The notes beneath the pieces were generated by a model, which was given only the letters and a program-made list of their open reading frames with translations, made no database searches and was not told the origin of the DNA. The translations under genes and the position numbers were made by a program. A DNA stretch of 64,000 bases from assembly GCA_002840765.1 (NCBI GenBank), contig PHCE01000001.1, forward strand, positions 124,001-188,000, given 5' to 3'. Below are positions 23,280-41,809 of this stretch, piece after piece; the first letter of the stretch is position 1, and the number at the start of each line of letters is the position of its first letter. Source of the stretch: Betaproteobacteria bacterium HGW-Betaproteobacteria-7 (lineage in GTDB: Bacteria; Pseudomonadota; Gammaproteobacteria; Burkholderiales; Rhodocyclaceae).

Positions 23280-25391
23280 ATGGAAACTGCCTCGGCCCCG
23301 TTGATCGCTTGGAGCTTCGGAATTGCCGCGGCGGCCTACGGGCTTTTCGCTGCTTATCTGCTCGTCCTCGGCCCCCCCCTGCAATCCGGCCCGCGCACCC
23401 GCAGGATGCTGCTGGCCGTTGCGACAGCCCTGATCTGGGCAACGATTTCCTGGGCATCGTTCGACACCGGCCATCCCTTCCTGCTCTTCCTATCGTCGAT
23501 CGCCGATGTGCTGCGCCATGGTGCCTGGTTCGCCTTCCTGATCCTGCTGCTGCGCCCAGCCGCCAGCGGCGAAGGCCAAGACCTGCTCCCCAGCTGGCTG
23601 GTACCTGCCTGCTGGCTGAGCGTGGCCAGCAGCATCGTCTGGCAGATTTCGCTGACCTTTGGCCTGCTGGCCGGCGAGCAATGGCTGCGCATAGCGCTGT
23701 TTCTCGGCCTCGCCCTGCCGGTCCTCGGCCTGATCCTGGTCGAGCAACTGTTTCGCAGCGTCGCCGATGACTCGGTCTGGAACATCAAGCCGCTCTGCCT
23801 CGGCCTGGGCGGCCAACTGGTTTTTGACGTCTATCTCTTCTCCGAAGCTCTGATGTTCAACCGCCTCGATCCGGATGCCTACGCTGCCCGCGGCTTCATC
23901 CATGCGATCACGGTTCCGCTGCTGCTACTGGCCACCTTGCGCAGTCGCGACTGGACCACCAAGATCCGGCTGTCACAGCGTGCTGCCTTCCACTCGGCGA
24001 CACTCCTGATGGCCGGCCTGTATCTGCTGTTCATGGCTAGCGTTGGTTACTACGTCCGCTACTTCGGCGGCGAGTGGGGACGGGCCCTGCAGCTGGCCCT
24101 GGTTTTCGCTGCCGTGCTCGGTCTCGGCGTACTTTTCCTGTCCGGCGCCATACGGGCCAGGATGCGCGTGCTGGTCGGCAAGCATTTCTATCGTTATCGC
24201 TACGATTACCGCGAGGAGTGGCTACGCTTCACGCGTACTCTGGCGACTCAGGATTCCCCCCAGGCCATGGGCCAGCAGGTGATCCGCGGTCTGGCGACGA
24301 TGGTCGAGAGCCCGGCCGGCGGGCTCTGGCTGCGCGAAGGGGGCCAGGACAGCTATCGTCAGACGGCGCGCTGGAACATCCCGGCCAGCGAGGCAGAAGA
24401 AAAAATCGATTCGCCGCTCGTCGAGTTCCTGATTTCCAGCGGCTGGGTGGTCAATCTCGAGGAATACCGCTGCTTCCCCGGCCGCTATGGCGAACTCGAC
24501 ATTCCGCCCTGGCTCTCCGAACTGCCGAATGCCTGGCTGATCGTGCCGCTGATGGTGGGCAGCCAGATGACCGGTTTCGTTGTCCTGGCCAGTGCCCGGA
24601 CACCGATTGATGTCAATTGGGAGGTTAACGACCTGCTGCGCACCGCCGGTTGCCAGGCGGCCGGTTTCCTGGCCAACATGCAGGCAACCGAGGCGCTGCT
24701 CGAAGCCCGCAAGTTCGACGCCTTCAACCGCATGTCGGCCTTCGTTGTCCATGACCTGAAGAACATCGTCACCCAGCTCGCCCTGATGTTGAAGAATGCC
24801 GAGCGGCATCGCGACAACCCGGAGTTCCAGCAGGACATGCTGATGACCGTCGAACATTCGGTGGAACGCATGCGTCAATTGATGATGCAATTGCGCGAAG
24901 GGGCCACCCCCCCGGGAACGGCCTGCGGTGTTAATCTTCCAGACGTCATCGAACGTATCCGCAAGGAAAAGGCGGACCAAGGGAGGGAGGTCGAATTGCA
25001 ATTGCACGAAAACCTGGCTACCCGTGGCCATGAGGATCGCCTCGAACGGGTTATCGGCCATCTGGTGCAGAACGCGCTCGACGCCACCGATCCGGCTGGC
25101 CGTGTCGCCGTCACCCTGGAGCGCCGTGGTGACCGGGCGGCACTGGAAGTTGCCGACACCGGCCACGGCATGACCCCGGAATTCATCCGCGAACGCCTGT
25201 TCAAGCCCTTCCAGAGCACCAAGCAGGCAGGCATGGGCATTGGTGCCTTCGAAAGCGCCCAGTACATCCGCGAACTCGGCGGCGAAATGCAGGTGGAGAG
25301 CGAGCCCGACAAGGGCACGCGGATCACCGTCATCCTGCCCTTGTTCGAGGTCCGCACCGAATCCGATTTGCGCGAAAAGGAAATCGTTTGA
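23280..25391 (+). CDS. prsK: XrtA/PEP-CTERM system sensor histidine kinase PrsK
   Basis: 703 residues. About nine to ten hydrophobic helices fill the first ~300 residues, followed by a GAF-like domain (~310-455), then a HisKA-type dimerisation helix FVVHDLKNIVTQLALMLKNAERHR with the phosphoacceptor His. The ATPase domain has VIGHLVQNALDATDP (N box), VADTGHGMT (G1) and GMGIGAFESAQYIRELGGEMQVES (G2). This layout is characteristic of PrsK. It should phosphorylate PrsR, whose TTG start overlaps its TGA. The input signal is unknown; the multi-helix part could sense a membrane or envelope state. PrsK/PrsR with RpoN are known to control PEP-CTERM genes in floc-forming relatives. Confidence 0.93.
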   Translation: METASAPLIAWSFGIAAAAYGLFAAYLLVLGPPLQSGPRTRRMLLAVATALIWATISWASFDTGHPFLLFLSSIADVLRHGAWFAFLILLLRPAASGEGQDLLPSWLVPACWLSVASSIVWQISLTFGLLAGEQWLRIALFLGLALPVLGLILVEQLFRSVADDSVWNIKPLCLGLGGQLVFDVYLFSEALMFNRLDPDAYAARGFIHAITVPLLLLATLRSRDWTTKIRLSQRAAFHSATLLMAGLYLLFMASVGYYVRYFGGEWGRALQLALVFAAVLGLGVLFLSGAIRARMRVLVGKHFYRYRYDYREEWLRFTRTLATQDSPQAMGQQVIRGLATMVESPAGGLWLREGGQDSYRQTARWNIPASEAEEKIDSPLVEFLISSGWVVNLEEYRCFPGRYGELDIPPWLSELPNAWLIVPLMVGSQMTGFVVLASARTPIDVNWEVNDLLRTAGCQAAGFLANMQATEALLEARKFDAFNRMSAFVVHDLKNIVTQLALMLKNAERHRDNPEFQQDMLMTVEHSVERMRQLMMQLREGATPPGTACGVNLPDVIERIRKEKADQGREVELQLHENLATRGHEDRLERVIGHLVQNALDATDPAGRVAVTLERRGDRAALEVADTGHGMTPEFIRERLFKPFQSTKQAGMGIGAFESAQYIRELGGEMQVESEPDKGTRITVILPLFEVRTESDLREKEIV

Positions 25392-26743
25392 GCAACGAAA
25401 AGCTACGCCCCCTGCTGATTGTCGAGGACGATCCGGCATTGCAGAAGCAGTTGCGCTGGTCCTTCGACCAGTACGAGACGCTCACTGCCGGCGATCGGGA
25501 AAGCGCGCTGAGCCAGATTCACCGCCATAATCCGGCGGTCGTCACCATGGACCTCGGCCTACCGCCGGATGCCGACTCCGTCTCCGAGGGCTTCCGCCTG
25601 CTTGAACAGATCCTCGCGGCAGCGCCCGACACCAAGGTCATAGTCCTTACCGGCCAGAACGACCGGACCAATGCCTTACGCGCCATCGGCCTCGGCGCCT
25701 ACGATTTTTTTGCCAAGCCATTCGAGCCGGAACTGCTGCTCCTAACCATCGACCGCGCCTTCCGGCTGTACGACCTGCAACAGGAAAACCGGCGCCTGCA
25801 GTCCGCCCAACACCCCGACGCTCTGGCCGGACTGATCACCCGCAGCCCGGAGATGCTGCGCGTCTGCCGTACCATCGAAAAAGTCGCCGGCAGCAATGCC
25901 ACCGTGCTCCTGCTCGGCGAAAGCGGCACCGGCAAGGAAGTTTTGGCGCGTGGCCTGCACGAGGCCTCGCCGCGCAAGAACGAACGGTTTGTCGCCATCA
26001 ACTGCGCGGCCATTCCCGACAATCTGCTGGAAAGCGAGCTGTTCGGCTATGAAAAGGGGGCCTTCACCGGCGCCGCCAAGACGACGCCGGGCAAGATCGA
26101 GAGTGCCGACGGCGGCACCCTGATGCTCGACGAAATCGGCGATCTGCCCCATCCGCTACAGGCCAAGTTGTTGCGCTTCCTGCAAGAGCGCGTCGTCGAA
26201 CGCCTGGGCGGGCGCCAGGAAATCCCGGTCGATGTGCGCATCGTCTGTGCCACCCATCAGGATCTGAAGACGCTGATCAAGGAAGGGCGTTTCCGCGAGG
26301 ACCTGTTCTACCGTCTGGCCGAGATCATCATCAACATCCCGCCGCTGCGCCAGCGTCAGGGCGATGCCGCGCTGCTCGCCCACGCCTTTGTCCGCCGCTT
26401 TGCCAACGAACACAATTGCGGCAGCATGACCCTAACCGAGGATGCCGTGCGCACCATCGAGGCGCATCCGTGGCCGGGCAACGTCCGCGAGCTGGAAAAC
26501 TGCATCAAGCGTGCGGTCATCATGGCCGACGGCGCCCAGATCAACCGCGACGACATTGGTCTGGAAAACGATGCCGAGCAATCTGAATTCATCGACCTGC
26601 GCAAGATTCGCGACGACGCCGAGCGCAATGCCGTAGTCACCGCCCTTGGCCGCGCCAACGGCAATGTCGTGCGCGCCGCGGAAATTCTCGGCATCAGCCG
26701 GCCAACCCTCTACGACCTGATGCATCGCCTGGGCCTCAAGTAA
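25388..26743 (+). CDS. prsR: PEP-CTERM-box response regulator PrsR (sigma-54 activator)
   Basis: 451 residues from a TTG start that overlaps the prsK stop (TTGA). Receiver domain: acidic pocket VEDD near residue 13, phosphoacceptor in VVTMDLGLPPD, VIVLTG and FFAKPFE. Central AAA+ domain: GESGTGKEVLARGLHEAS (Walker A), the intact sigma-54 loop KGAFTGAAK and GGTLMLDEIGDLP (Walker B). C-terminal Fis-type helix-turn-helix: RAAEILGISRPTLYDLMHRLGLK. It is an AtoC/NtrC-class activator that should work with RpoN. One plausible target in this window is the sigma-54 promoter at 35404-35419; this link is inferred. Confidence 0.95.
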   Translation: MSNEKLRPLLIVEDDPALQKQLRWSFDQYETLTAGDRESALSQIHRHNPAVVTMDLGLPPDADSVSEGFRLLEQILAAAPDTKVIVLTGQNDRTNALRAIGLGAYDFFAKPFEPELLLLTIDRAFRLYDLQQENRRLQSAQHPDALAGLITRSPEMLRVCRTIEKVAGSNATVLLLGESGTGKEVLARGLHEASPRKNERFVAINCAAIPDNLLESELFGYEKGAFTGAAKTTPGKIESADGGTLMLDEIGDLPHPLQAKLLRFLQERVVERLGGRQEIPVDVRIVCATHQDLKTLIKEGRFREDLFYRLAEIIINIPPLRQRQGDAALLAHAFVRRFANEHNCGSMTLTEDAVRTIEAHPWPGNVRELENCIKRAVIMADGAQINRDDIGLENDAEQSEFIDLRKIRDDAERNAVVTALGRANGNVVRAAEILGISRPTLYDLMHRLGLK

Positions 26744-26767: not shown

Positions 26768-29539
26768 ATGAAAAAGCCTACCTCCATCATTTCTACCGCG
26801 ATTTCAACCGCCCTGCTGGCTGCCTTTCTCGGCGGCTGCGGCGGCGACGATCCAGCCCAACTGATCGCCTCTGGCAAGGATTTCCTGGCCAAAAACGACA
26901 ACAAGGCCGCAGTCATTCAGCTGAAGAATGCCCTGCAGGCCGATCCTGATCTCGGCGAAGCGCGCTTCCTGCTCGGCAAGGCCCTGCTGGCCAGCGGCGA
27001 TGTCGCCGGCGCCGAAGTCGAATTGCGCAAGGCCTACAACCTGAAGTACGCCAGCGACGATGTCGTTCCCCTCCTCGCCCAGGCCATGCTGACCAACGGC
27101 CAGGCAAAGAAGGTAACCGATGAGTTCGCGACCACCGAGCTGGGCACCAACCTGGCCAAGGCCAGTTTGAAAACCGTCCTCAGCACCGCCTGGGCCATCC
27201 AGGACAAGAACGAACAGGCGAACAACGAACTGACCAGCGCCCTCGCCGCCCAGGCAGACTACGCCCCGGCCCTGCTCGCCCAGTCACGGCAGAAGGCAAT
27301 CAGCAGCGACCTGCCCGGTGCCCTGAAAATTGTTGAAGGCGTGCTCGTCGCCAATCCCAAGGATCATGATGCCCTGCTCCTGGCCGGTTCGCTGCTGGCA
27401 GCAACATCGGATAGCCAGGGTGCGCTTGAGCGCTATCGCCAGGCGGTCACCGTCAAACCTGATTCCCTGATGGCTCACTCGGCAGTCATATCGACACTGT
27501 TCCAGTTGCGTAAACCAGAAGATGCAGCGGTGCAGATCGAAGCGATGCAGAAGATCGCCCCCAAGCATCCGCAGACACTCTACCTTTCCGGGCAATCGGC
27601 CTATCAGCGCAAGGACTTCAAGGCGGCGCGCGAAATCAGCCAGGAACTCCTGAAAGTAACCCCCGACAACGTCAGTGCCCTGCTGCTCGCTGGCGCCAGC
27701 GAGTTCCAGCTGCGCTCTTACTTGCAGGCGGAGGCGCATCTGAGCAAGCTGCTGCAGAAGAGTCCCAACTCGGCGCTGGGCCGCCGCCTGCTCGTCGCCA
27801 CCTACCTCCGTTCCGGTCAGGCAACCAAGGCCATGGCCGCCCTGCAACCAGCACTTGAACAAATCGAAAATGATCCCACCCTGCTCGCCCTGGCGGGCGA
27901 AACCTATCTAATGAACGGCGATGCGGACAAGTCTGCGGAATACTTCGCCAAGGCCGCGAAACTTGACCCGGACAACAAAGGCAAGCAGGTTTCCGTCGCC
28001 ATTGCCCATCTCGCCCAAGGCAAGAGCGGTGCTGTGACGGAGCTGGAACAGATTGCCAGTACCGACAGCGGGACCAGCGCCGATCTGGCGCTGATTGCCA
28101 CCCATCTGAAAGCCAGGCAACTAGACAAAGCGCTGAAAGCCATCGACGCACTTGAGAAAAAGCAACCTGACAACGCGGCAACCCACAACCTGCGCGGACG
28201 TACATTGCTCGGCAAGAAAGACATCGTCGGCGCCCGAGTCAGCTTCGCGAAGGCCCTGCAACTCAATCCCACCTTCTTCCCTGCAGCCGCCAGCCTAGCT
28301 GCCCTTGACGTCGCCGACAAAAAACCCGAGGAGGCCCGCAAGCGCTTCGAGGCGATACTCGCCGTCGATCCCAAGCATGCCCAGGCCCTGCTCGCCACCG
28401 CCGAACTGGCAACCAGCACGGGCGGCAAACCGGCAGAAGTTGAAAAACTGATCGGTAACGCTGTTCTGGCCAATCCTCAGGACATTACGGCCCGCCTTGC
28501 GCTGATCCAGCACCATCTGAAGAACAAGGATAACAAGAAGGCAATGACCGCAGCCAATGATGCAACGGCCGCCATACCCGATCGGCCCGAAATCCTTGAT
28601 GCACTCGGCCGAACCCAGCAAATATCCGGGGATACCAGCCAGGCACTGAACACTTACGGCAAACTGGCCACCCTGCAGCCGACCTCACCTTTGGCCCACA
28701 TGCGTCTGGCGGAAATCCATCTGGCCGAGAAAAACCGCGACGAAGCAGTCAAGAACCTGCGGAAGGCTCTGGAGATCCGGCCGGATTTGCTTGACGCCCA
28801 GCGCGGCCTGATTCTGTTCTTCGTTGAGGACAAGAAAATGGCTGAAGCCTTGGCCGTTACCCGTCAGATACAGCAACAACGACCCAAGGAAGCCATCGGC
28901 CACATTCTCGAAGGTGATGCTCATGCCACCGCCAGCTCCTGGCCAGAAGCCATCAAGGCATATCGTGCCGGCCTCAAGCTTGAGCCTTCCCCGGATCTGG
29001 CAATCAAGCTTTTCAGCGCGCTGAAAGCCTCGGGCAACACTGCCGAAGCCGAGCGCTGGGCGGCAACGTGGATGAAGGAGTATCCGAAGGATATCGCCCT
29101 GCGCATGCATCAGGGAGATATTGCTCTCGCGCGCAAGGATTACGAGAGTGCAGCCCAGATTTATCGCGCTGCTCTTGAAATTCAGCCAGAGAATCCCCTG
29201 ATTCTCAACAACCTGGCCTGGGTCTCGGGCCAGCTTAAGTCGCCAAAGGCGATTGAATACGCGGAAAAGGCCAATCGCATCGCTCCCAATCAGCCCGCTG
29301 TCATGGATACCCTAGCTATGCTGCTGGCCGAAAAGGGTGATTCTGCGCAGGCAATCGAACTGCTGCGCAAGGCGATGCAGATTGCTCCGCAAGCCGCACT
29401 GGTCCAGTTGAACCTTGCCAAGGTACTAATCGGCAGCGGTCAAAAGGATGCGGCGCGCAAGGAACTGGACGAATTGGCCAAGCTGGGCGACAAGTTCACC
29501 GGCCATTCGGAAGTCGCGCGTCTGCAAAAGGAACTCTGA
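26768..29539 (+). CDS. prsT: XrtA/PEP-CTERM system TPR-repeat lipoprotein PrsT
   Basis: 923 residues. The N terminus is a lipoprotein signal with lipobox LGGC (Cys24): ISTALLAAFLGGC followed by GGDD. The rest is an almost continuous array of TPR units, visible as repeated A-x-x-x-L/Y-x-x-A-L-x-x-x-P patterns, for example AEVELRKAYNLKYASDDVVPLLAQAML and YESAAQIYRAALEIQPENPLILNNLAWV. Such a size and layout is typical of PrsT, a periplasmic scaffold anchored in a membrane. GGDD after the Cys suggests possible inner-membrane retention, but that rule is from enterobacteria. It starts 24 bases after prsR. Confidence 0.93.
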   Translation: MKKPTSIISTAISTALLAAFLGGCGGDDPAQLIASGKDFLAKNDNKAAVIQLKNALQADPDLGEARFLLGKALLASGDVAGAEVELRKAYNLKYASDDVVPLLAQAMLTNGQAKKVTDEFATTELGTNLAKASLKTVLSTAWAIQDKNEQANNELTSALAAQADYAPALLAQSRQKAISSDLPGALKIVEGVLVANPKDHDALLLAGSLLAATSDSQGALERYRQAVTVKPDSLMAHSAVISTLFQLRKPEDAAVQIEAMQKIAPKHPQTLYLSGQSAYQRKDFKAAREISQELLKVTPDNVSALLLAGASEFQLRSYLQAEAHLSKLLQKSPNSALGRRLLVATYLRSGQATKAMAALQPALEQIENDPTLLALAGETYLMNGDADKSAEYFAKAAKLDPDNKGKQVSVAIAHLAQGKSGAVTELEQIASTDSGTSADLALIATHLKARQLDKALKAIDALEKKQPDNAATHNLRGRTLLGKKDIVGARVSFAKALQLNPTFFPAAASLAALDVADKKPEEARKRFEAILAVDPKHAQALLATAELATSTGGKPAEVEKLIGNAVLANPQDITARLALIQHHLKNKDNKKAMTAANDATAAIPDRPEILDALGRTQQISGDTSQALNTYGKLATLQPTSPLAHMRLAEIHLAEKNRDEAVKNLRKALEIRPDLLDAQRGLILFFVEDKKMAEALAVTRQIQQQRPKEAIGHILEGDAHATASSWPEAIKAYRAGLKLEPSPDLAIKLFSALKASGNTAEAERWAATWMKEYPKDIALRMHQGDIALARKDYESAAQIYRAALEIQPENPLILNNLAWVSGQLKSPKAIEYAEKANRIAPNQPAVMDTLAMLLAEKGDSAQAIELLRKAMQIAPQAALVQLNLAKVLIGSGQKDAARKELDELAKLGDKFTGHSEVARLQKEL

Positions 29540-31768: not shown

Positions 31769-32529
31769 GGGTGCTCAGACGCACCACTGCCCTCGTGCTC
31801 AGCACCTGTCTGGCCCTGTCGGCAATAGCCGCCGATTTGGTGGACACCATCGCCCGCGTCAAGCCGTCGATTGTCGTCGTCGGCACTTATCAGAAAACCG
31901 CCAGCCCGCAATTCAACATGCGCGGCACGGGTTTCGTCATCGGCAACGGTAACCTGGTCGCTACCAATGCCCATGTCGTGCCCCAGGAAAGCGGCCCGGA
32001 CGACCCGGCCCTGGTCATTCATGTGCGCACCGGCGAGGCTTCGTCCCAACTGCGCGGCGCCCGCCTGATCAGCCGTGATGTCGAACGCGATCTGGCAGTA
32101 CTGCGTGTCGATGGCTTGCCCCTGCCTGCCTTGCTCCTGCGCGACTCAGATTCCGTTCGCGAAGGCCAGATGATCGGCTTCACCGGTTTCCCAATTGGCG
32201 GCGCACTGGGTTTTTCGCCGGTCACGCATCGCGGCATGATCGCCTCGATCACACCCATCGTGCTACCCGGCGGTACGGCACGCCAACTGAACGAAAAAGC
32301 AATTCGCCAGATCAAGCGCGGCAGCTTCAACATCTTTCAACTTGATGCAACGGCCTATCCGGGCAACAGCGGCAGCCCCGTCTTCGATCCGGAGACCGGC
32401 GAGGTGATCGGCGTCATCAACATGGTTTTCATCAAGGGCAGCAAGGAGTCGGCCCTCAGCCACCCTTCGGGAATCAGCTATGCAATCCCGGCCAATTACC
32501 TTAAAAGCCTGGTCGATCAGGGACGCTGA
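31765..32529 (+). CDS. Trypsin-like serine protease (S1C type) without PDZ domain
   Basis: 254 residues. It starts at a GTG overlapping the stop of the transglycosylase gene (GTGA); a second GTG 6 bases later is possible. A signal peptide (LRRTTALVLSTCLALSAIAA) precedes a chymotrypsin fold with the triad visible: LVATNAHVVPQ (His), DVERDLAVLRVDG (Asp) and DATAYPGNSGSPVFD (Ser). There is no PDZ domain after it, unlike DegP/DegS. It is probably periplasmic. Its coupling to a muramidase gene suggests a joint role in envelope remodelling. It converges with the nucleotidyltransferase gene and overlaps its end by 13 bases. Confidence 0.88.
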   Translation: MRVLRRTTALVLSTCLALSAIAADLVDTIARVKPSIVVVGTYQKTASPQFNMRGTGFVIGNGNLVATNAHVVPQESGPDDPALVIHVRTGEASSQLRGARLISRDVERDLAVLRVDGLPLPALLLRDSDSVREGQMIGFTGFPIGGALGFSPVTHRGMIASITPIVLPGGTARQLNEKAIRQIKRGSFNIFQLDATAYPGNSGSPVFDPETGEVIGVINMVFIKGSKESALSHPSGISYAIPANYLKSLVDQGR

Positions 32530-33593
32530 ACGTCGGCTGTCGGCACGGACAGCATGCCGACCCGCAACTTGTGGGCGAGGTGCACCAGTAGCAAGCGTCC
32601 CGGCAGGCGCAAGGAAACTTCGCGGATTAACAAGATAAGATCGGCGACCGCCTGGAATGCCGGGCGGGTTTCCGGATGGCGTGGCTTCACTGCCAGTTCC
32701 AGCAGAGCGAGCAGCGAACCCCGCTGTAGGGGTAGTTTGTTCTCGGGGATCGGCGTCGCAAAGAAACGATGTACCAGCCACAATGCCTGGCCAAGCATCG
32801 TACTCAGACCGACTTCCTGCGCACGCTGGCCAAGACGCCCCCAAAAGCCCTCATCAGAACCAGAAAAGTGACGAAGCAGGACATCGAGATCCCACAAGTC
32901 GCGCAAGCCATGGTCGAATTCCCCGTTAAGCAGGAGATGCGCTATCGAATGGAGAAGCATATCTTCATCCTGCAGTCGCCACCAACGGCTGCCATCGCCA
33001 ACGGGCTTTGCGCTGGCCAACATCGCTGCCGAATCGATGGCAATCCGGCAGGTCGGCATGACTAGCGAATGGTGAAGATCAATCGTCGTTCCACGCTTTA
33101 GATGGGTCAACGGCGGGATTTCATGAGACCACTCGCGATAGTAGCGTTCGTCGTAAGCCTCAATCTGTCCGGCAACCCAGCCACCGAGCATGAGTTCAGC
33201 TTCAACGTTCGCAATTTGTTGGTGCGCCACCAACAAATCGATGTCGCTGAAGATGCGACCTTCGGCAGCTGGCAGGCCAAGGGCCACGTAGGATGCCCCC
33301 TTGAGCAGCAAGACGGGCGTTTCGACACGCGCCAAGGCGGTGGCGATGTGTGAGAGTTCCCGCTGGACATCGCTGCGGAATGCCTCGCCCTGGATTAGCG
33401 CCGCCTCCAGTTGCCGGCTCGTTCGAGCCGGCAGATCCGCGATCAGGCCAAGCGCCTTGCAGCGGCAGGCCAGACGAACCAGCAGGCCGGCACGCCGGGC
33501 CTCTGCCAGCAGCAGGCTGCATGTTTCCGGATCGAATGTCCTTACGACAATCGGATCGAGGAGAAAATGAAGCAACGGCGAATGATCAGCCAT
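32517..33593 (-). CDS. Nucleotidyltransferase-fold protein of the HPr-rel-A type cassette
   Basis: 358 residues from ATG 33593 (MADHSPLLHFLLDP); the ORF track runs 39 residues further into the kinase gene. The core VLLLKGASYVALGLPAAEGRIFSDIDLLVA matches the uncharacterised nucleotidyltransferase family (PF14907 type): an L-K-G segment followed by R-x-x-S-D-I-D-L-L-V with the two metal-binding aspartates. THLKRGTTIDLHHSL and LLHSIAHLLLNGEFDHGLRDLWDLDVLL are further family blocks. A homologue (PsmN) adds groups to a phosphorylated lasso peptide, so modifying a peptide or protein phosphate is a reasonable idea. It overlaps the kinase gene by 8 bases. Confidence 0.82.
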   Translation of the reverse strand: MADHSPLLHFLLDPIVVRTFDPETCSLLLAEARRAGLLVRLACRCKALGLIADLPARTSRQLEAALIQGEAFRSDVQRELSHIATALARVETPVLLLKGASYVALGLPAAEGRIFSDIDLLVAHQQIANVEAELMLGGWVAGQIEAYDERYYREWSHEIPPLTHLKRGTTIDLHHSLVMPTCRIAIDSAAMLASAKPVGDGSRWWRLQDEDMLLHSIAHLLLNGEFDHGLRDLWDLDVLLRHFSGSDEGFWGRLGQRAQEVGLSTMLGQALWLVHRFFATPIPENKLPLQRGSLLALLELAVKPRHPETRPAFQAVADLILLIREVSLRLPGRLLLVHLAHKLRVGMLSVPTADVQRP

Positions 33594-34497
33594 ACTGCGC
33601 CGCCAGATCACGTAAAGCGTCACGTGCTTCATCCAGAGATGAGTACTCGAGATCCCAGGCCTCTGCAGTGCCAACCAGATCCGCCAAGCGGACAAAGCCG
33701 GCAGGACCAAGATTCGAATAGTTGAAAGACTGATCTATCAGCCGCATTGCCGCCCGTCCCTGAGCAACAGGTTCGATGCTCAAGGAAGCGCCGGCCTGCC
33801 ATTTCGGGAATACGATCAAGCGAGGAATGGCCAGTTCGGAAGCTCGCGCCACTGCCGAGGCGGGCGCTGGAACATGGCCAATCGTTCCCTTGTGAGTATC
33901 GCGAGCCAACGGGCCAAGGACCACTTCAGGATGACGCGTACGAATGACTTCAATCGAGTCATTTTTCAGACTGACCGGCCTTGGACAAGGTTGTAGTCTC
34001 CCCTCGGTATCGATCAGCGCCAGTTCATCCGATAGCAGACGCCACCCGGAGAGCGCCATTTCTGCGGCTAGTGTGCTCTTGCCACTGCCCGAGGTCGCGG
34101 AAAGGAGAACACCCTTTCCGCCCGTTTCAAGAACTGCTGAGTGAAGGATCAGGAACTGGTGCGCGTGGGCGCCAATACTCCAGTTGAAGCCCCATTCGAA
34201 CAAAGCGTGTGCATGATCTGTTGCCACAGGCAGGAATGGGCGCTCGCCGGACAATTCGAAAACCACGTTGTGCCGGATGTAACGTCGGAGCAGATTGGGA
34301 TGAATGACCCCGATGTCGTAATCAAACTCGCCACCGTCAAGATTGCAGGGGTGGTCCGCATAGAGAACCTGGAGCGCTGAAGCAAATCCCCAAATATCAC
34401 TTGTCACCTTGACCCGGAAACTCCCCGCATCAAGCCGAAAACGACCACTGGTCAGACTTTCCCGAATATCTTCTGGCGACAGTTCCCGAACGATCAA
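33586..34497 (-). CDS. HprK-related kinase A
   Basis: 303 residues, starting at a TTG that overlaps the preceding stop (TTGA). HPr kinase-like P-loop: VLETGGKGVLLSATSGSGKSTLAAEMALSGWRLLSDELALID, with GSGKST at 137-142 and the acidic S-D-E Walker B. Upstream, HQFLILHSAVLE has the family His-Ser pair. It lacks the HprK N-terminal domain. Relatives with this architecture occur next to PqqD-like and PF14907 genes (HPr-rel-A system) and in lasso-peptide clusters, where a homologous kinase phosphorylates the peptide C terminus. Here the probable substrate is the exported protein encoded first in the operon; that is inference. Confidence 0.87.
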   Translation of the reverse strand: MIVRELSPEDIRESLTSGRFRLDAGSFRVKVTSDIWGFASALQVLYADHPCNLDGGEFDYDIGVIHPNLLRRYIRHNVVFELSGERPFLPVATDHAHALFEWGFNWSIGAHAHQFLILHSAVLETGGKGVLLSATSGSGKSTLAAEMALSGWRLLSDELALIDTEGRLQPCPRPVSLKNDSIEVIRTRHPEVVLGPLARDTHKGTIGHVPAPASAVARASELAIPRLIVFPKWQAGASLSIEPVAQGRAAMRLIDQSFNYSNLGPAGFVRLADLVGTAEAWDLEYSSLDEARDALRDLAAQYG

Positions 34498-34745
34498 TCT
34501 TCAACCAATCCCGAATTGAGAAATATGGACTGCCAGTGTGCCACAGCCATCATGTCGCTACCCAAGCGTGTTTCAAGGAAATGGCTGCATGATTGCATAT
34601 CAGGCGGCAACAATACTGTTTCGCCCGACATCCTGTCGAATAGGAACAGGCCATCCTCCAGACGGCGAAACAAAAACCGCGAGGTAATCTCGCGGTCGGT
34701 TCCAGAAAGTCCAGTCAAGTTTGACTGCCGCTCGTCAGGGTCCAT
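34494..34745 (-). CDS. PqqD-like peptide-recognition protein (HPr-rel-A type)
   Basis: 83 residues from ATG 34745, which overlaps the upstream stop by one base (TGATG); the ORF track uses the TTG just before it. The body reads FLFRRLEDGLFLFDRMSGETVLLPPDMQSCSHFLETRL: beta-hairpin, then a D-x-x-S-G-E-T turn and helix, the winged-helix pattern of PqqD/RiPP-recognition elements. These small proteins bind a peptide segment and present it to an enzyme. It stands between the putative substrate gene and the kinase gene, as a recognition subunit should. The family match is by eye and moderately weak because of its size. Confidence 0.75.
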   Translation of the reverse strand: MDPDERQSNLTGLSGTDREITSRFLFRRLEDGLFLFDRMSGETVLLPPDMQSCSHFLETRLGSDMMAVAHWQSIFLNSGLVED

Positions 34746-35359
34746 CAAGTGCCGGTGAAGGTGCTCGACAGATATTTAACGATTGTCTCAGATGACCAAG
34801 GGTTTTCCATGCCCGGTACTGGCTGATAACCCGTATTGCGATAACGCCACATATCCTGCAGCTGTTCCAGCGAGATCACCGTGGGCGGAACAAAATTAAC
34901 CTGCAGATTGCACCAGGCTGCAGCCAGATGGAAGCCCAGCTTGTACTGATCCGCAAACTTCGGTTCGTTGCGCATACCATTGCGTAACACCTGTTTCAGG
35001 GTCTTTCCGGGAAAAGCACTGGAGTCACCGAAAACAGTTGAGAAAAGTTTCCCTTCTGCACTGCTTTGTACCCAAAAACTATGATTTGGGTGCGTTGAGT
35101 TGGCCGCCTCGCTCCAAAAGCCAGGAGAACGGCCAGCACATGAGACGAGCTCACGATCGGGGCGGCTGTTGAGCAGCGCGATGGAGGCAGAGGCCGATGG
35201 TGAGAGACACAAACCTCCGTTAGCCAAGGCAGAACGGGAAGACAAGGCGAGCATCACAGGCGTTGCCAAGCCAACCCCACGCACAAAGCGGCGACGGGAT
35301 TCTGAGCCGGTTGGGGTTACCACCTGCTGGGAATCTTCGTGATGTTGGGAATCGCTCAT
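34745..35359 (-). CDS. Twin-arginine exported protein, likely substrate of the adjacent kinase cassette
   Basis: 204 residues from ATG 35359 (MSDSQHHEDSQ), chosen because GAAGAG stands just upstream; the ORF track adds 21 residues. A Tat signal is clear: SESRRRFVRGVGLATPVMLALSSRSALA, cut before NGGLCL. The mature domain has three cysteines (LCLSPSAS, VSCAGRSPGFWSEA, AWCNLQV). The SPGFW stretch recalls the [T/S]PGFWKNHP motif of many secreted proteins. The C terminus is Ser/Thr-rich: KYLSSTFTGT. No PEP-CTERM or LPXTG sorting signal is present. It is first in a four-gene operon behind a sigma-54 promoter. Function unknown. Confidence 0.75.
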   Translation of the reverse strand: MSDSQHHEDSQQVVTPTGSESRRRFVRGVGLATPVMLALSSRSALANGGLCLSPSASASIALLNSRPDRELVSCAGRSPGFWSEAANSTHPNHSFWVQSSAEGKLFSTVFGDSSAFPGKTLKQVLRNGMRNEPKFADQYKLGFHLAAAWCNLQVNFVPPTVISLEQLQDMWRYRNTGYQPVPGMENPWSSETIVKYLSSTFTGT

Positions 35360-35403
35360 AGTGTTCTCTTCGGAGTATCGATAGGTTATTTCACGCAGTT
35401 CAA

Positions 35404-35419
35404 AGCAAATTTCAAACCA
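35404..35419 (-). promoter_or_regulatory. Sigma-54 (-24/-12) promoter of the four-gene cassette
   Basis: On the - strand TGGTTTGAAATTTGCT matches TGGCACG-N4-TTGCT: GG and GC are separated by exactly 10 bases and TTGCT is complete. The expected start of transcription (~35393) leaves a leader of about 34 bases before the ATG at 35359. It is the only well-spaced -24/-12 site I found upstream of a gene in the polysaccharide/exosortase part of the window. Confidence 0.65.
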
Positions 35420-35492
35420 CAATCAGAAAAAACCAATTAATCATAAACATAAAAATAACAAACGACCTGAAAGCAGCGCCCGGATAGCTAAG

Positions 35493-35509
35493 TGTAAAGT
35501 TTCCCGACA
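35493..35509 (-). promoter_or_regulatory. Candidate enhancer (PEP-CTERM box-like) for a sigma-54 activator
   Basis: TGTCGGGAAACTTTACA on the - strand lies 75-91 bases upstream of the -24 element, a normal distance for an NtrC-class activator. PrsR encoded at 25.4-26.7 kb is such an activator. Between this and the next gene there is also the palindrome ACTTCCAGGAAGT (35553-35565). The link to PrsR is inferred, not shown. Confidence 0.4.
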
Positions 35510-35616
35510 TCGCTTTGGACGCGTCAATTGCATTGTAGATCGTCGGTGGATCACTTCCAGGAAGTAATTCACGCCAGCCGTCATACGTTTAATTGGTGCA
35601 TGGCGAAAAAGTCCGG

Positions 35617-36204
35617 CTAAGCGACCAGCCACTGCTGCAATTGGCCGACTGAGAAGGCGATGATCAGTGTGCCGGGCAGCATGCCCACCAGCGTTCCCGG
35701 AATAAAGTCCCTCAACCGCAGGTGCGAGGCACCGGCGATCATGTTAACGATGGCGAAGGGCGCGATGGGCAGCAGCCGGATGATGATGACCGAGAGCAAA
35801 CCGCGCTCGGCCAGACGGCGGCTGATCCGGTTGATGCGTTCGCCGGCGAAGCGCTGCAGACCGTCGTGCCCCAGGTAATTGCCGATAGCGTAGCTGACCA
35901 CCCCACCCAAGGTCGCCCCGGTCAGCACGTAGGCGGTAGCGGGCAAGGGGCCAAACAGTAGCGCACTGGCGACGATGATAATGCCTAGGGGCACGGCGAC
36001 GATGCTGGCGAGAAGCACACCAGCCAGTACCAACCAGACTGGCCAACTACCGGCACTCAGACGCAGCGCGGCAACCAGTTCGGCCATCCCCTGGTTATCG
36101 TCGGGGGCGTAGATATTCCAGACGACAGCGAGGGCGATCAGGGCCAGCAGCAGGCCGATGAGGGTCAGCACCCGCAGTCGGGCGAAGCGCGGCGACGGCG
36201 TCAT
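35617..36204 (-). CDS. TVP38/TMEM64 (VTT-domain) membrane protein
   Basis: 195 residues with five to six hydrophobic helices. The VTT/SNARE-associated core is visible: ASALLFGPLPATAYVLTGATLGGVVSYAIGNYLG, then GLLSVIIIRLLPIAPFAIVNMIAGASHLRLRDFIPGTLVGMLPGTLI, including the R-L-x-P-x-x-P-F motif of DedA-like proteins. Members act in lipid movement across the inner membrane or envelope homeostasis. It is the last gene of the galE operon, with its ATG overlapping the synthetase stop by one base. Specific substrate unknown. Confidence 0.87.
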   Translation of the reverse strand: MTPSPRFARLRVLTLIGLLLALIALAVVWNIYAPDDNQGMAELVAALRLSAGSWPVWLVLAGVLLASIVAVPLGIIIVASALLFGPLPATAYVLTGATLGGVVSYAIGNYLGHDGLQRFAGERINRISRRLAERGLLSVIIIRLLPIAPFAIVNMIAGASHLRLRDFIPGTLVGMLPGTLIIAFSVGQLQQWLVA

Positions 36205-39200
36205 CAGAAAGGATTCCCGGTGCTATTGTCATTAATGACCAGCTCAAGAATCCGGGCCAATTCGCCGATATTGCCCGCTTCGAACAGCGATCCGTGCAGC
36301 CCTGGCACTTCCCTTTCCTTCAGCCCAGCGCTGAACAACTTGCGCCAGGGCCGGAAGACCCAGCGTTCCCAGCGCAACATGCCGGTCGACTTGATCAGGC
36401 TGGTCGACACCGTGCAGGGTGCTGGCCGATAGGTAGCGATGGCATCGATTTGCGCCAGCAGACCGCGATCGCTGAGCAATGCCCCGAGATGACGGCCATT
36501 GAGGCTGAGCTGCTGGACATTCAGATGGCGGGCGGACCAGCCAAGAAAGCGCCAGAACACGGCACTGCGCAGGATGGCGCCGGGGAACACGGTATCGATC
36601 AGGCACAGGTGGCTGACCGGAAATCCTCCGGCCTGCAATTGACGCGCTGTTTCCAGGGCGGCGATGCCGCCGACCGAAAAACCGGCCAACAGCGCCGGCC
36701 GCCCCATCTCGGCGATACACCCGGCGTAGGCTTCGGCCAGTTCGCCAATGCTGCCGATCGAGCGGCCAGCGGGCGGCTGCAACATGAACACATCAGCCGC
36801 CTCGCCAAGCAAACCGGCCAGGCGACGAAAACGCATCAGATCACCATGTCCTGAGGCGGCCAGAAAGATGGCCGGACGCCCGGAAGGATGAATCAGCGGC
36901 AACAAAATATCCTGACTCGCATCGCAACGCTCTGGCGCCAGCGCCGCGGCAAGCAGTTCGACGCTCGGATGCTCGGTCAGCATGAACAGCGGAACCGGCC
37001 GTTCGAGCAGGGTTTCCATGCCGGTCAGGATGTCGATGGCAGCCAGCGAGTCCCCTCCGGCGGCAAAGAAGTTGTCGTTCACCCCCAGCCTGTCGTTTTT
37101 GAGTGCCACGCGCCAAATGGCGAGCAGGCTTCTTTCGCGATCGCCGGATGGTGGCCGACTAACTCTTTCGACTGCCTCGTCAGCCATTGCGGGTAACAGA
37201 TCGTAGGCGATCTTGCCGGTCGCCCCGAGCGGCAATTCCAGCAGACAAGCGATAGCGCCGGGCAGCATGTAATCGGGCAGGCGGCTGGCCAGTTGGCTAC
37301 GCAGGCGGTCGGCCGACAAGGAACTGGCAACCCAGGCCTGCAGGCGAGCGCCCCCACGAGCATCGACCAGTTTGACGGCCGCTTGCCAAACGCCGTCGAT
37401 CGCCAGCAACGTACTCTCGATCTCGCCCAGTTCGACGCGATAACCGCGCAGCTTGACCTGCCGGTCGCGTCGCCCGACAAAGTGGAGCAGGCCGTCATCA
37501 GCCAGCCAGCCGAGGTCGCCACTACGGTACAGGCGAGCGCCGGGAACGAACGGGTCTGCGATAAAGGCAGTACGGGTAGCCGCCGGCTGGTTCAGGTAGG
37601 CGTCGGCCAGCCCAGCCCCGCCGATGCAGATTTCGCCAATCACACCGAACGGCCGGGGATTGCCTTTTTCATCGAGGAGCAGGATGCGCGCACCATCGAT
37701 GGCTCTGCCGATCGGTAGAGAATCAGCCGGTAATGGCTGGCTGCAGTCCCAGGCAGTGGCGAAGATCAGGGCCTCGGTCGGCCCGTAGACATTGAACAGT
37801 TGCGCGCTCGTTTGCTGTTGCAAGCGGCCGGCCAGTTCGGGCGAAAGGGTTTCGCCGCCACAGCAGGCGACCCGCAACGTGCACGGCTGCCCGTCTGGCA
37901 GTGAGTCGAGCAGTCCGCGCAGGGTGGATGGCACCAGGGCCATCATCGTCACGCCATGCTCAGCGACAAATGGACCGATAGCCAGCGGCGCCAGCCGACC
38001 GGGCGATGGCAGCGCGATGCGGGCGCCGTTGATCAGCGGCACCAGCAATTCGATCAGCGACGGATCAAACGGCAATTGCGTCACCTGCCCGCTACAATCG
38101 GCAGGCGTAACTGCAAAGAGTCGGGATATTCCGGCCAGGCGCACGGCCAGGGCACGATGGCTGACCATCACCCCTTTCGGCCGGCCGGTCGAGCCTGAGG
38201 TGTACAGCACATAGGCGAGGCTGGCGGCGGCTGGCGGCGGCAGGGCGAGCGGACTGTCCGCAACTTCCGGTTCGCCAACGAGCATCTGCCGGACCGATAG
38301 CGTGGCGAAGCGCCCGGCCAGTTCCGGCTGAACGAGCAAGGCAATGGCTCCGGCATCGGCGAGAATGCCCGCCAGGCGAGCCAGCGGCGCATCCGGATCG
38401 AGCGGCAGGAAGGCCGCACCGGCCTTGCCGATGGCCAACAGGGCGGCGACCATGGCCGGCGAACGCTCGATGGCCAGGGCGACAATTTTGTTCGGTCCGG
38501 CGCCGAGGTCGTGCAAGCGGCCAGCAAGAGCGTCGGACCAGCCATCCAGCACGGCGTAATCGAGACGGCAGCCAGCCCGAAGCAGCGCACATGCTTGCGG
38601 ATTAAGCACCGCCTGGCGACGGAATTGCTCGACATAGCTCGCCTCCCCCAGCCCGGACGACAGCGGCGATCCAGCCAGACCCTGCAGCGCCGCCAGTTCT
38701 TCCGGAGCGATCAACGGAAACTCATCGAGCGGACGTTCCGTATCGCTCACCAGGGAATCGGCGAGATGGGCGAGACGCTGACCGAGCCAGCCCAGCTCCG
38801 CGGCGGAAAAGAACTCGGGAGACGCCTCGAGATGCAGCTCCACGTCCTGTCCGGCCTGGAATTCGCACAGCGTGATGCCCAACGGATAGCGGGCCAGCCC
38901 GGAAAAGGTCTGGCAGGCACCGAAACTTTTGCCGGCGCCGAAATGCAGGTCGTAGTCCTGACGCTCGAAGGAGAACAGGACATCGAAGAGGCTGTCGCGT
39001 CGATGGCGGATCAACTCCAGCCGGCGCGCCAGTTCGCTGAGCGGATAGCGCTGGTGCCGCACCGCGGCTTTCAGGGCCAGGCTGACGGCCTGCAGCAGCT
39101 GCCCGAAGTTCATCCGCGGCGCCAATCTGACGACCAGCGGAAAAACGCCGACGAACATGCCCGGCGTATCGCGATAGCGTTTGCCACCACGATTGAGGCT

Positions 39201-40019
39201 GGGCAAGCCGATGATCACCTCTTCGCGGGCCTCGCCGGCACGCCCCAGGTAAGCGGCAAAGACCGCAATCAGCAAGGCGAAGGCCGTCGTTCCCTGCTCC
39301 GCGGCAAAGGTGGCAAGGCCGGCGAAGACACTGCGCGGCAATGCCTGACAATGCAGGTGAGCGGATGGCAGTTGGCCCCCCGTGGCCGCCGGAAAGCGCC
39401 GAATGAACAGCGGCGGTGGCAACCGGGGCAATTGTTCGGCCCAGAATTCGCCATCCTTGATGAAAGCCGGTGACGAACGATAGTCGATCGATTCGGCAAT
39501 GAAGCGGCGATAGCCGGGGTCGTTCGTCGCTGGTGCCGGCAGCCCCGCGGCCAGCGCATTGTAGAGTTCCGCCCAGCGCTGCATGATGCGCGAGGTGCCC
39601 CAGCCGTCCATGATCAGATGGTGGAACTGGATGCTCAGACCATGCAACTGCTCGCTGTGCCGGAGCAGCGCGAAGCGCCAGGGCGGCCGGCCGTCGAAGG
39701 CGAAGGGCTCGGCGATGCGCCGGCCCCACCAGTTGCGCATGGCCAGCAGCGGCTCGCCGGCCGCCGAGACGTCGACCATGTCCAGCTCCGCCGGCCATTC
39801 CGGCAGCAAGAGCTGGCCGCCTTCCACCAGCGGCACCAGGCGCAGCGCTTCATTTTCGGCAACCAGTTGCTGCAGGGCCCGACGAAACAGGGCGAGATCG
39901 AAAGGTCCGTCGATGAAACCGGCTCCGCCAATATTGAGGTGCGTGCTGTCGGGCCAGGCACGCTGGTCCAGCCAGACTTCCTGCTGACTGAGGGAGAGGG
40001 GCAGTCGCGCGCCGTTCAT
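36204..40019 (-). CDS. Single-module nonribosomal peptide synthetase-like protein (C-A-T-TE)
   Basis: 1271 residues from ATG 40019 (MNGARLPLSLSQQEVW), which overlaps the patatin stop (ATGA); the longer ORF is an artefact. Condensation domain ~1-430 with HHLIMDGWG (HHxxxDG). Adenylation domain ~430-960 with LAYVLYTSGSTGRPKGVMVSHRAL, FNVYGPTEALIFATAW and YRSGDLGWLADDGLLHFVGRRDRQVKLRGYRVELGEIES. Carrier domain with FFAAGGDSLAAIDIL, then thioesterase with ALLAGFSVGGIAALE. By hand alignment to GrsA the pocket reads about D-P-I-A-A-C-V-I-F; the retained first Asp suggests an alpha-amino acid. It could join one amino acid to an acyl or amine partner. The product is unknown. Confidence 0.88.
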   Translation of the reverse strand: MNGARLPLSLSQQEVWLDQRAWPDSTHLNIGGAGFIDGPFDLALFRRALQQLVAENEALRLVPLVEGGQLLLPEWPAELDMVDVSAAGEPLLAMRNWWGRRIAEPFAFDGRPPWRFALLRHSEQLHGLSIQFHHLIMDGWGTSRIMQRWAELYNALAAGLPAPATNDPGYRRFIAESIDYRSSPAFIKDGEFWAEQLPRLPPPLFIRRFPAATGGQLPSAHLHCQALPRSVFAGLATFAAEQGTTAFALLIAVFAAYLGRAGEAREEVIIGLPSLNRGGKRYRDTPGMFVGVFPLVVRLAPRMNFGQLLQAVSLALKAAVRHQRYPLSELARRLELIRHRRDSLFDVLFSFERQDYDLHFGAGKSFGACQTFSGLARYPLGITLCEFQAGQDVELHLEASPEFFSAAELGWLGQRLAHLADSLVSDTERPLDEFPLIAPEELAALQGLAGSPLSSGLGEASYVEQFRRQAVLNPQACALLRAGCRLDYAVLDGWSDALAGRLHDLGAGPNKIVALAIERSPAMVAALLAIGKAGAAFLPLDPDAPLARLAGILADAGAIALLVQPELAGRFATLSVRQMLVGEPEVADSPLALPPPAAASLAYVLYTSGSTGRPKGVMVSHRALAVRLAGISRLFAVTPADCSGQVTQLPFDPSLIELLVPLINGARIALPSPGRLAPLAIGPFVAEHGVTMMALVPSTLRGLLDSLPDGQPCTLRVACCGGETLSPELAGRLQQQTSAQLFNVYGPTEALIFATAWDCSQPLPADSLPIGRAIDGARILLLDEKGNPRPFGVIGEICIGGAGLADAYLNQPAATRTAFIADPFVPGARLYRSGDLGWLADDGLLHFVGRRDRQVKLRGYRVELGEIESTLLAIDGVWQAAVKLVDARGGARLQAWVASSLSADRLRSQLASRLPDYMLPGAIACLLELPLGATGKIAYDLLPAMADEAVERVSRPPSGDRERSLLAIWRVALKNDRLGVNDNFFAAGGDSLAAIDILTGMETLLERPVPLFMLTEHPSVELLAAALAPERCDASQDILLPLIHPSGRPAIFLAASGHGDLMRFRRLAGLLGEAADVFMLQPPAGRSIGSIGELAEAYAGCIAEMGRPALLAGFSVGGIAALETARQLQAGGFPVSHLCLIDTVFPGAILRSAVFWRFLGWSARHLNVQQLSLNGRHLGALLSDRGLLAQIDAIATYRPAPCTVSTSLIKSTGMLRWERWVFRPWRKLFSAGLKEREVPGLHGSLFEAGNIGELARILELVINDNSTGNPF

Positions 40020-41809
40020 GACTGACCGGGTGGCGCCGGCCAGTGGGCGATCTGCTCCATGGCGTGGCGATAACCGACTTCGGCGATTTCGGCAGCCCGC
40101 CGATAAGCCATCAGGGGAAAGGCGCCAACCGGCGGTTCGAGACAGTAGTCGGCCATGGCCATGGTCCGGCTGCGCTCGTGCATGCCGCCGACGTGGCCGG
40201 CACGATAGAGGATGGCGGCGATCGAGGGCGACTGGCCGCCCTGCCCGCCCAGAAAACCACGCAGGTTGCGCCAGACGGAGAGCCGGGCCATTTCCGGATC
40301 GACGCACAGTTGCTCGCGCAAATCGACATCGACGGCGATGATCGTGCCGTTGCCGCGCCGCCGTTCGAGCGGCGTGCCAAGCCGGCCGCGCATGGCGGCG
40401 ACGGGCACGTTGTCGAGGATCGCCCCGTCGACCAACAGGTCACCGTTCCAGAGCACCGGCGGCAGCAGGCCGGCTGGCGAATTGCTGGCCAGCACTGCCC
40501 GCCACAGCGGGCCGCTGTCCTGCACCGTGGTGCACGCCTGGCTCAAATTGCAGGCCGAGGCGAAAAACGGCCGCCACAATTGTTCGATGCGCGTATCGCC
40601 GAACATGCGGTGCAGGTCGCGTTCCAGGCGCTTGCCAGAGAGCAGCGAGATCAGCGGCAGGGTCGGCCGTTCGCCGCCAAGGGCGAAACGCCGGGTGTTG
40701 TCGAGAATCTCGTCGAGCGCCATGCCACTGGCGTACTGCGCCCCGATCAGCGCGCCCATGCTGTTGCCCCCGATCAGATCGACCGGAATGCCGCATTCCT
40801 CCAGGGCGCGCAGCACCCCCACATGGGAGAAGCCACGGGCGCCGCCGCCACCGAGGACGACGCCGACCGCGCGGCTGCCAAGGAAGCGGGCCAGTCGCGC
40901 CGTGTCGGCGGCATGCCCGCCGCGCAACGGGTAGATACGCTCGACGTCGCGGACCGCAAGCCAGGCCTGCAAGTCGCCCGGCAGTTCGGCGCCGGCTGGG
41001 TGAATCAGGGCAAGATGCTTGCGCTTCATGACGAAGCCCTGCTCCTGTGCCAGTTCCGCCTCGACTGCCGAAAGCTCCGGTGACTCGGCGCTGGCCGCGA
41101 CGAAGACGACCTGATCGGCCTGGCGGAGCAACCGTCGGGTACGCGGGTGATTGTCCGTATCGGCCGTCAGGACGAGAAATTCGAATTGCTGTTCCAGCTG
41201 GTCGAGTTGCCGGCCGTCAACCTCGGCCCCGGCGAACTCGGCGGCTCGGCCGAAAGCCCCGAGGGCAGCAGCCAGTTCGTCAGCCACTTGGCGCCCGAGG
41301 AGAACATCGCGCAGGGCGATGACGGCAATCGTGTGCGCCCTCGCCTGCTCCGCCACCTGCGGCACATGGCGCAACTTCTGATACACCGCCTGGGCGAAGA
41401 AACGGTTCAACTCCACCGGATGCCGGCGCAACAGTACCTCGAAGGGATCCCGACGCAAACGGGCGACCAGCGTATCGCGCACTGCCGTCACATCGGCAAA
41501 GCGCACTTCGCCAAGGATCATCCCGGTTTCGCCGACGGTCTCGCCGGGACATATCTCGTTATAAAGGTTCAGCGTTCCGTCCGCATTGCGCCGCGAAACC
41601 CGCAAGCGGCCACTGACCACGACCAGCATGCTGTCGGCCACCTCGCCTTCGGACAGGACAGCCTGCCCGCCAGCGACCTCCTCCAGCTCCAGGACGGCTG
41701 CCAGATCATCGACAATGCCCTCACCCAGCGCCGCGAATGTCCGGCTGCCCAGCAGCACCTCGCGCAGCTTGTCGCGCGCTGAAGGCGACGCTGAGGGTGC
41801 CGGCTGCAT
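40016..41809 (-). CDS. Patatin-like phospholipase with cyclic nucleotide-binding domain (NTE type)
   Basis: 597 residues from ATG 41809 (MQPAPSASPSARDKLREVL), 10 bases after galE; the longer ORF reads through galE antisense-frame sequence. Residues ~15-130 look like a cNMP-binding domain (ILDDLAAVLELEEVAGGQAVLSEGEVADSMLVVVSGRLRV...GETVGETGMI). A middle region of ~170 residues shows weak nucleotide/Rossmann character. The patatin domain has VVLGGGGARGFSHVGVLRAL (oxyanion hole), GGNSMGALIGA (GxSxG nucleophile) and LLVDGAILDNVP (catalytic Asp in D-G-A). It is expected to hydrolyse phospholipids or lysophospholipids. Its neighbour is a peptide synthetase with a thioesterase. Confidence 0.88.
   Translation of the reverse strand: MQPAPSASPSARDKLREVLLGSRTFAALGEGIVDDLAAVLELEEVAGGQAVLSEGEVADSMLVVVSGRLRVSRRNADGTLNLYNEICPGETVGETGMILGEVRFADVTAVRDTLVARLRRDPFEVLLRRHPVELNRFFAQAVYQKLRHVPQVAEQARAHTIAVIALRDVLLGRQVADELAAALGAFGRAAEFAGAEVDGRQLDQLEQQFEFLVLTADTDNHPRTRRLLRQADQVVFVAASAESPELSAVEAELAQEQGFVMKRKHLALIHPAGAELPGDLQAWLAVRDVERIYPLRGGHAADTARLARFLGSRAVGVVLGGGGARGFSHVGVLRALEECGIPVDLIGGNSMGALIGAQYASGMALDEILDNTRRFALGGERPTLPLISLLSGKRLERDLHRMFGDTRIEQLWRPFFASACNLSQACTTVQDSGPLWRAVLASNSPAGLLPPVLWNGDLLVDGAILDNVPVAAMRGRLGTPLERRRGNGTIIAVDVDLREQLCVDPEMARLSVWRNLRGFLGGQGGQSPSIAAILYRAGHVGGMHERSRTMAMADYCLEPPVGAFPLMAYRRAAEIAEVGYRHAMEQIAHWPAPPGQS

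Follow-up and report, generated by a model that had tools for sequence, protein, structure and literature searches.

The genes of PEP-CTERM proteins in proteobacteria are preceded by a bipartite element that Haft et al. (2006) assigned to PrsR and sigma-54 (PMC1569441). It consists of a 17-nt motif ending in TTTACA (motif 1), a spacer of 32 to 92 nt, and a GG/GC site (motif 2), and lies in noncoding DNA 23 to 221 nt before the start codon; a few unnamed sites at non-PEP-CTERM genes were already seen in that study (PMC1569441). In Aquincola tertiaricarbonis RN12, pepA is RpoN dependent, and its -24/-12 start was mapped by primer extension (PMC9850573). In Zoogloea, both floc formation and the expression of PEP-CTERM genes require PrsK, PrsR, and RpoN, as cited, with prsK/prsR mutants, in PMC9012009; this agrees with the reported control of PEP-CTERM genes noted in the initial annotation of the present locus. 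Flocculation in activated-sludge bacteria is under the control of PrsK/PrsR/RpoN, with only PEP-CTERM genes as named targets so far. On the other side of the comparison are the lasso peptides, in which an HPr-kinase-like enzyme and an annotated nucleotidyltransferase act on a co-encoded substrate (paeninodin PadeK, pseudomycoidin PsmK/PsmN). In pseudomycoidin, the C-terminal Ser is phosphorylated by PsmK, and the addition of hexose needs PsmN (PMC9266682).

We found the known bipartite element of PEP-CTERM genes on the minus strand at 35509 to 35404 of a 64,000-nt stretch of Betaproteobacteria bacterium HGW-Betaproteobacteria-7 (the window), sitting before a kinase cassette (Table 1). Its upstream box, TGTCGGGAAACTTTACA, is an imperfect 6-5-6 dyad with the half-sites TGTCGG and TGTAAA, the layout of NtrC-family operators, and reads exactly TGTCGG-N5-TTTACA, the form common to PEP-CTERM genes of the same genome. 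The downstream site, TGGTTTGAAATTTGCT, has the form GG-N10-GC and matches 9 of 12 consensus positions; its -24 element is TGGTTTG, not TGGCACG, and relatives carry the same variant. The element is intergenic, and its -24/-12 site ends 44 nt short of the ATG at 35359. Transcription is predicted to start 12 nt past the GC, near 35393, leaving a leader of about 34 nt. The sequence and spacing of the GG/GC pair and of the box above it are thus as first annotated. No further box copy with three or fewer mismatches was found within 500 nt upstream.

Table 1. Features of the cassette locus and of the prs genes in the window
Feature	Position	Strand	Basis
Upstream activator box TGTCGGGAAACTTTACA (Haft motif 1)	35493..35509	minus	
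Sigma-54 -24/-12 promoter (predicted) TGGTTTGAAATTTGCT (Haft motif 2)	35404..35419	minus	
Spacer, 73 nt, between box and -24/-12 site	35420..35492	minus	
Terminator-like hairpin, end of preceding gene	35613..35631	minus	consensus scan only
Cassette gene 1 (leader), 204 aa, Tat-like RR signal, without PEP-CTERM	34745..35359	minus	
Cassette gene 2, PqqD-like small protein (TIGR04353, below cut-off)	34494..34748	minus	
Cassette gene 3, HprK-related kinase A (TIGR04352)	33586..34497	minus	profile score
Cassette gene 4, NTP_transf_5 nucleotidyltransferase (PF14907)	32517..33710	minus	
prsK, histidine kinase (TIGR02916, 917 bits)	23280..25391	plus	
prsR, sigma-54 activator response regulator (TIGR02915, 763 bits), GAFTGA intact	25388..26743	plus	
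prsT, TPR lipoprotein (TIGR02917, 924 bits)	26768..29539	plus	

The genome holds eight exact matches to TGTCGG-N5-TTTACA, five before PEP-CTERM genes and one before the cassette, and two further PEP-CTERM genes have a box with one mismatch. At all seven box-bearing PEP-CTERM genes, a -24/-12 site follows 51 to 73 nt past the box. The initial annotation had proposed to drop the idea should the box be absent from PEP-CTERM genes; the genome-wide check found the element upstream of 7 of the 16, with weight-matrix scores of 32 to 41, whereas none of the remaining nine scored above 5.4. The boxes at cassettes could not be told apart from the PEP-CTERM ones. Most of the nine genes without the element (L019, L020, L025-L027, L030-L033) have a PEPxxxAMLLAGLG-type tail, which sets them apart from the genes with a box and suggests that the PEP-CTERM genes of this genome fall into two differently regulated subtypes. 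We also observed one exact box before a non-PEP-CTERM gene (L010, G000:C30:275852), which has no well-spaced -24/-12 site behind it.

The prsK, prsR, and prsT genes are on the same contig as the cassette, and all score far above their NCBIfam cut-offs. The GAFTGA loop first noted in PrsR is indeed intact. The genome has a single rpoN copy, and only one of its proteins passes the PrsR cut-off. Among 370 genomes of the class, HprK_rel_A was over the cut-off in 42 and PrsR in 114, and 41 of the 42 had PrsR (p ~1e-22, with genomes treated as independent though they are related); the kinase was likewise accompanied by PrsR in 20 of 21 relatives and 36 of 37 named genomes. The element was present in 80 of the 114 PrsR genomes versus 12 of the 256 others (p ~2e-40, again counting related genomes as independent), while 34 PrsR genomes gave no strict match. 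PrsR-negative genomes were considered as a negative control and set aside: they comprised only G397, G041, and one Phycisphaeraceae MAG, and the absence of PrsR is not a clean control because G041, in which PrsR is not over the cut-off, still has element-like sites at PEP-CTERM genes. A different, PrsR-paralogous enhancer-binding protein might instead bind the box, with the promoter still being sigma-54 dependent, given that several regulators of the NtrC family are found in genomes of this group and that those 12 genomes have the element with no PrsR over the cut-off. However, we consider this improbable, since this genome has only one protein over the PrsR cut-off, the element tracks PrsR across the class, and cassette boxes and PEP-CTERM boxes look alike.

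Most cassette transcripts might instead come from read-through of the gene before it (36204-35617), the element then playing a minor part; that gene does lie on the same strand and ends 108 nt before the box. This reading appears somewhat less probable still, as a 257-nt gap without any annotated-looking gene separates that gene from the cassette, a terminator-like hairpin stands at its end, and no sigma-70-like site was seen in the gap.

Among 21 relatives, 18 carry the element ahead of the leader gene, and one more has it with the -24 GG changed to TG; it was found at 30 of 40 class loci, while two controls, one of them strand flipped, each gave 1 of 40. A matrix made from these cassette elements gave 28 to 48 at the positive loci and never exceeded 12.6 on the opposite strand, scored on the very loci from which it was built. 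In the named genomes, 39 of 80 cassette loci passed a matrix score of 25, compared with 0 of 80 on the opposite strand; these counts come from relatives, class, and named-genome sets that overlap in part, with G320 and L220, for example, apparently being the same contig. The association of element and cassette is thus conserved across the class, in many genera. It is not universal, because all 12 of the alphaproteobacterial cassettes (L271-L282, mostly Sphingomonadales, with the nucleotidyltransferase) had no PrsR box within 2 kb, although PrsR is encoded in their genomes.

A strict pattern search of 61 relatives gave 62 sites in 25 genomes, and the reversed pattern gave 1. By reading of the downstream ORFs, with four cassette loci taken from a separate locus survey, we assigned 43 of the 62 to PEP-CTERM-like targets, 10 to kinase cassettes, and 9 to other or unclear targets; among the strict sites, no target outside the PEP-CTERM genes other than the cassette was thus seen to recur. 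At another locus (L187, G026:C181:23509), the box and -24/-12 site precede an ORF of more than 1,200 aa that resembles, by eye only, a filamentous-haemagglutinin-type adhesin.

The gap between the box and the -24/-12 site clusters at about 52, 63, 74, and 85 nt in the 61 relatives and the 370 class genomes. The vector strength reached 0.87 at a period of 10.9 in a set of 46 PEP-CTERM sites (99.9th percentile of the jitter null, 0.49) and 0.65 at a period of 11.2 in 150 class-wide sites (maximum of the uniform null, 0.37). The cassette sites alone (n = 21) reached 0.58, under their 99.9th percentile of 0.63, and a low-score phasing control was weak, having just 14 sites. The 73-nt gap at the present promoter lies at the common phase peak of the related promoters. 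Such phasing is expected if an enhancer-binding protein activates the promoter through a DNA loop. Helical phasing is not mentioned in the text of Haft et al. (PMC1569441), and it offers a quantitative criterion to predict true PrsR promoters.

Within the window, the composite of box and -24/-12 site occurs once, compared with none in 100 dinucleotide shuffles. There are two copies of the box by itself; the second, at 16900, is a chance match in coding sequence, as it falls within an acyl-CoA ligase gene and is not followed by a sigma-54 site. The -24/-12 half-site is common (7 versus 2.25 expected) and, taken alone, is weak evidence. Even with such a common half-site and a coding copy of the box, chance resemblance is practically negligible as an explanation and already refuted by the conservation of the phased element at orthologous cassettes, along with the shuffles and the reversed pattern.

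The four genes of the cassette follow a recurrent plan. The order of leader, PqqD-like ORF, and kinase recurs across loci, and the nucleotidyltransferase is near the kinase in 40 of 40 class loci and present at 80 of 80 named-genome loci. The HprK_rel_A kinase scored 326.7 bits on TIGR04352 (cut-off, 200), and its Walker A residues are invariant in the alignment; the PqqD-like protein scored 16.8 bits on TIGR04353, below the cut-off of 35, but its position and size fit. In the leader proteins, an RR pair is invariant (37/37) and is followed by a hydrophobic stretch, from which Tat export is predicted. A PEP-CTERM signal is absent from all 37 aligned leader proteins, which bears out the first description of the cassette as lacking one. 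These 37 proteins share no family by Pfam or NCBIfam, with one weak single-member match each. The predicted structure of the leader protein is mostly helical (pLDDT 80), and comparison of the model with the PDB gave no similar fold at E <= 0.001. The leader proteins (the one at 34745-35359 and 36 relatives) show two C-terminal types, ending near LxxTx(W/F/Y) or LNxR, which are a possible modification site. Near the cassette, 36204-40307 encodes a large NRPS-like protein with an amino acid adenylation domain and similarity to the enterobactin synthetase EntF, situated in the exosortase A exopolysaccharide region.

Taken from sequence comparison, 35509 to 35404 is in all likelihood a PrsR-activated sigma-54 promoter of the PEP-CTERM kind that drives the cassette alongside XrtA-type PEP-CTERM proteins. 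Phosphorylated PrsR would bind the 17-bp box, the helically phased 73-nt spacer would form a loop, and the GAFTGA-bearing AAA+ domain of PrsR would open RNA polymerase-sigma54 waiting at the -24/-12 site, so that the leader-PqqD-HprK_rel_A-NTP_transf_5 cassette would be transcribed together with those proteins. PrsR binding, the start site, the operon structure, and induction at the cassette are all predicted. More speculatively, the kinase, the nucleotidyltransferase, and the PqqD-like protein may act on the leader protein while it is still in the cytoplasm, and Tat export of the leader protein would fit a modification made before export; the modified protein might then be exported in its folded state via Tat and join the extracellular matrix. 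By analogy, it is possible, if rather doubtful, that PrsR co-induces with the matrix proteins a kinase/nucleotidyltransferase system that, guided by the PqqD-like protein as a chaperone, modifies its partner before Tat export, perhaps at the C-terminus in the manner of lasso kinases. If so, the exopolysaccharide matrix would receive modified proteins by a second pathway as well, one independent of exosortase.

The PrsR-type switch very probably controls more than the PEP-CTERM surface proteins of biofilm- or floc-forming bacteria, because the element, with its conserved spacing, precedes a four-gene cassette without the sorting tag. The initial annotation had spoken of a regulon wider than protein sorting. 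We prefer "wider than PEP-CTERM substrates," since the first cassette gene encodes a protein with an export signal. A conserved second class of targets would thus exist in a large share of PrsR genomes in several orders, and an uncharacterized kinase cassette gains a physiological context and a testable inducer.

With respect to known systems, the cassette resembles lasso peptide tailoring in having a predicted HPr-kinase-like enzyme and a predicted nucleotidyltransferase beside a co-encoded putative partner. It differs in the nature of that partner, which is about 200 aa long and has a Tat-like signal, and the conserved unit of leader, PqqD-like protein, kinase, and NTP_transf_5 includes neither a lasso protease nor a lasso cyclase. 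It matches the HPr-rel-A system (TIGR04352, TIGR04353) in its kinase, well over the cut-off; the PqqD-like protein beside the kinase scores below its own cut-off. Regulation of that system is apparently undescribed in the open-access literature searched, because no mention of the family was found there. The pepA promoter of RN12 has, like that of the cassette, a -24/-12 site and an upstream enhancer box, but a PEP-CTERM gene downstream (PMC9850573). With the element of Haft et al., the present one shares the motif end, the spacer, the GG/GC site, the long 5′ intergenic region, and PrsK/PrsR/RpoN, whereas its downstream gene lacks PEP-CTERM and heads a kinase/nucleotidyltransferase cassette. 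A downstream PEP-CTERM gene describes the usual target of that element, not the promoter itself. The element and its regulon were already known from Haft et al. (2006), and what is new is a conserved target outside the PEP-CTERM genes.
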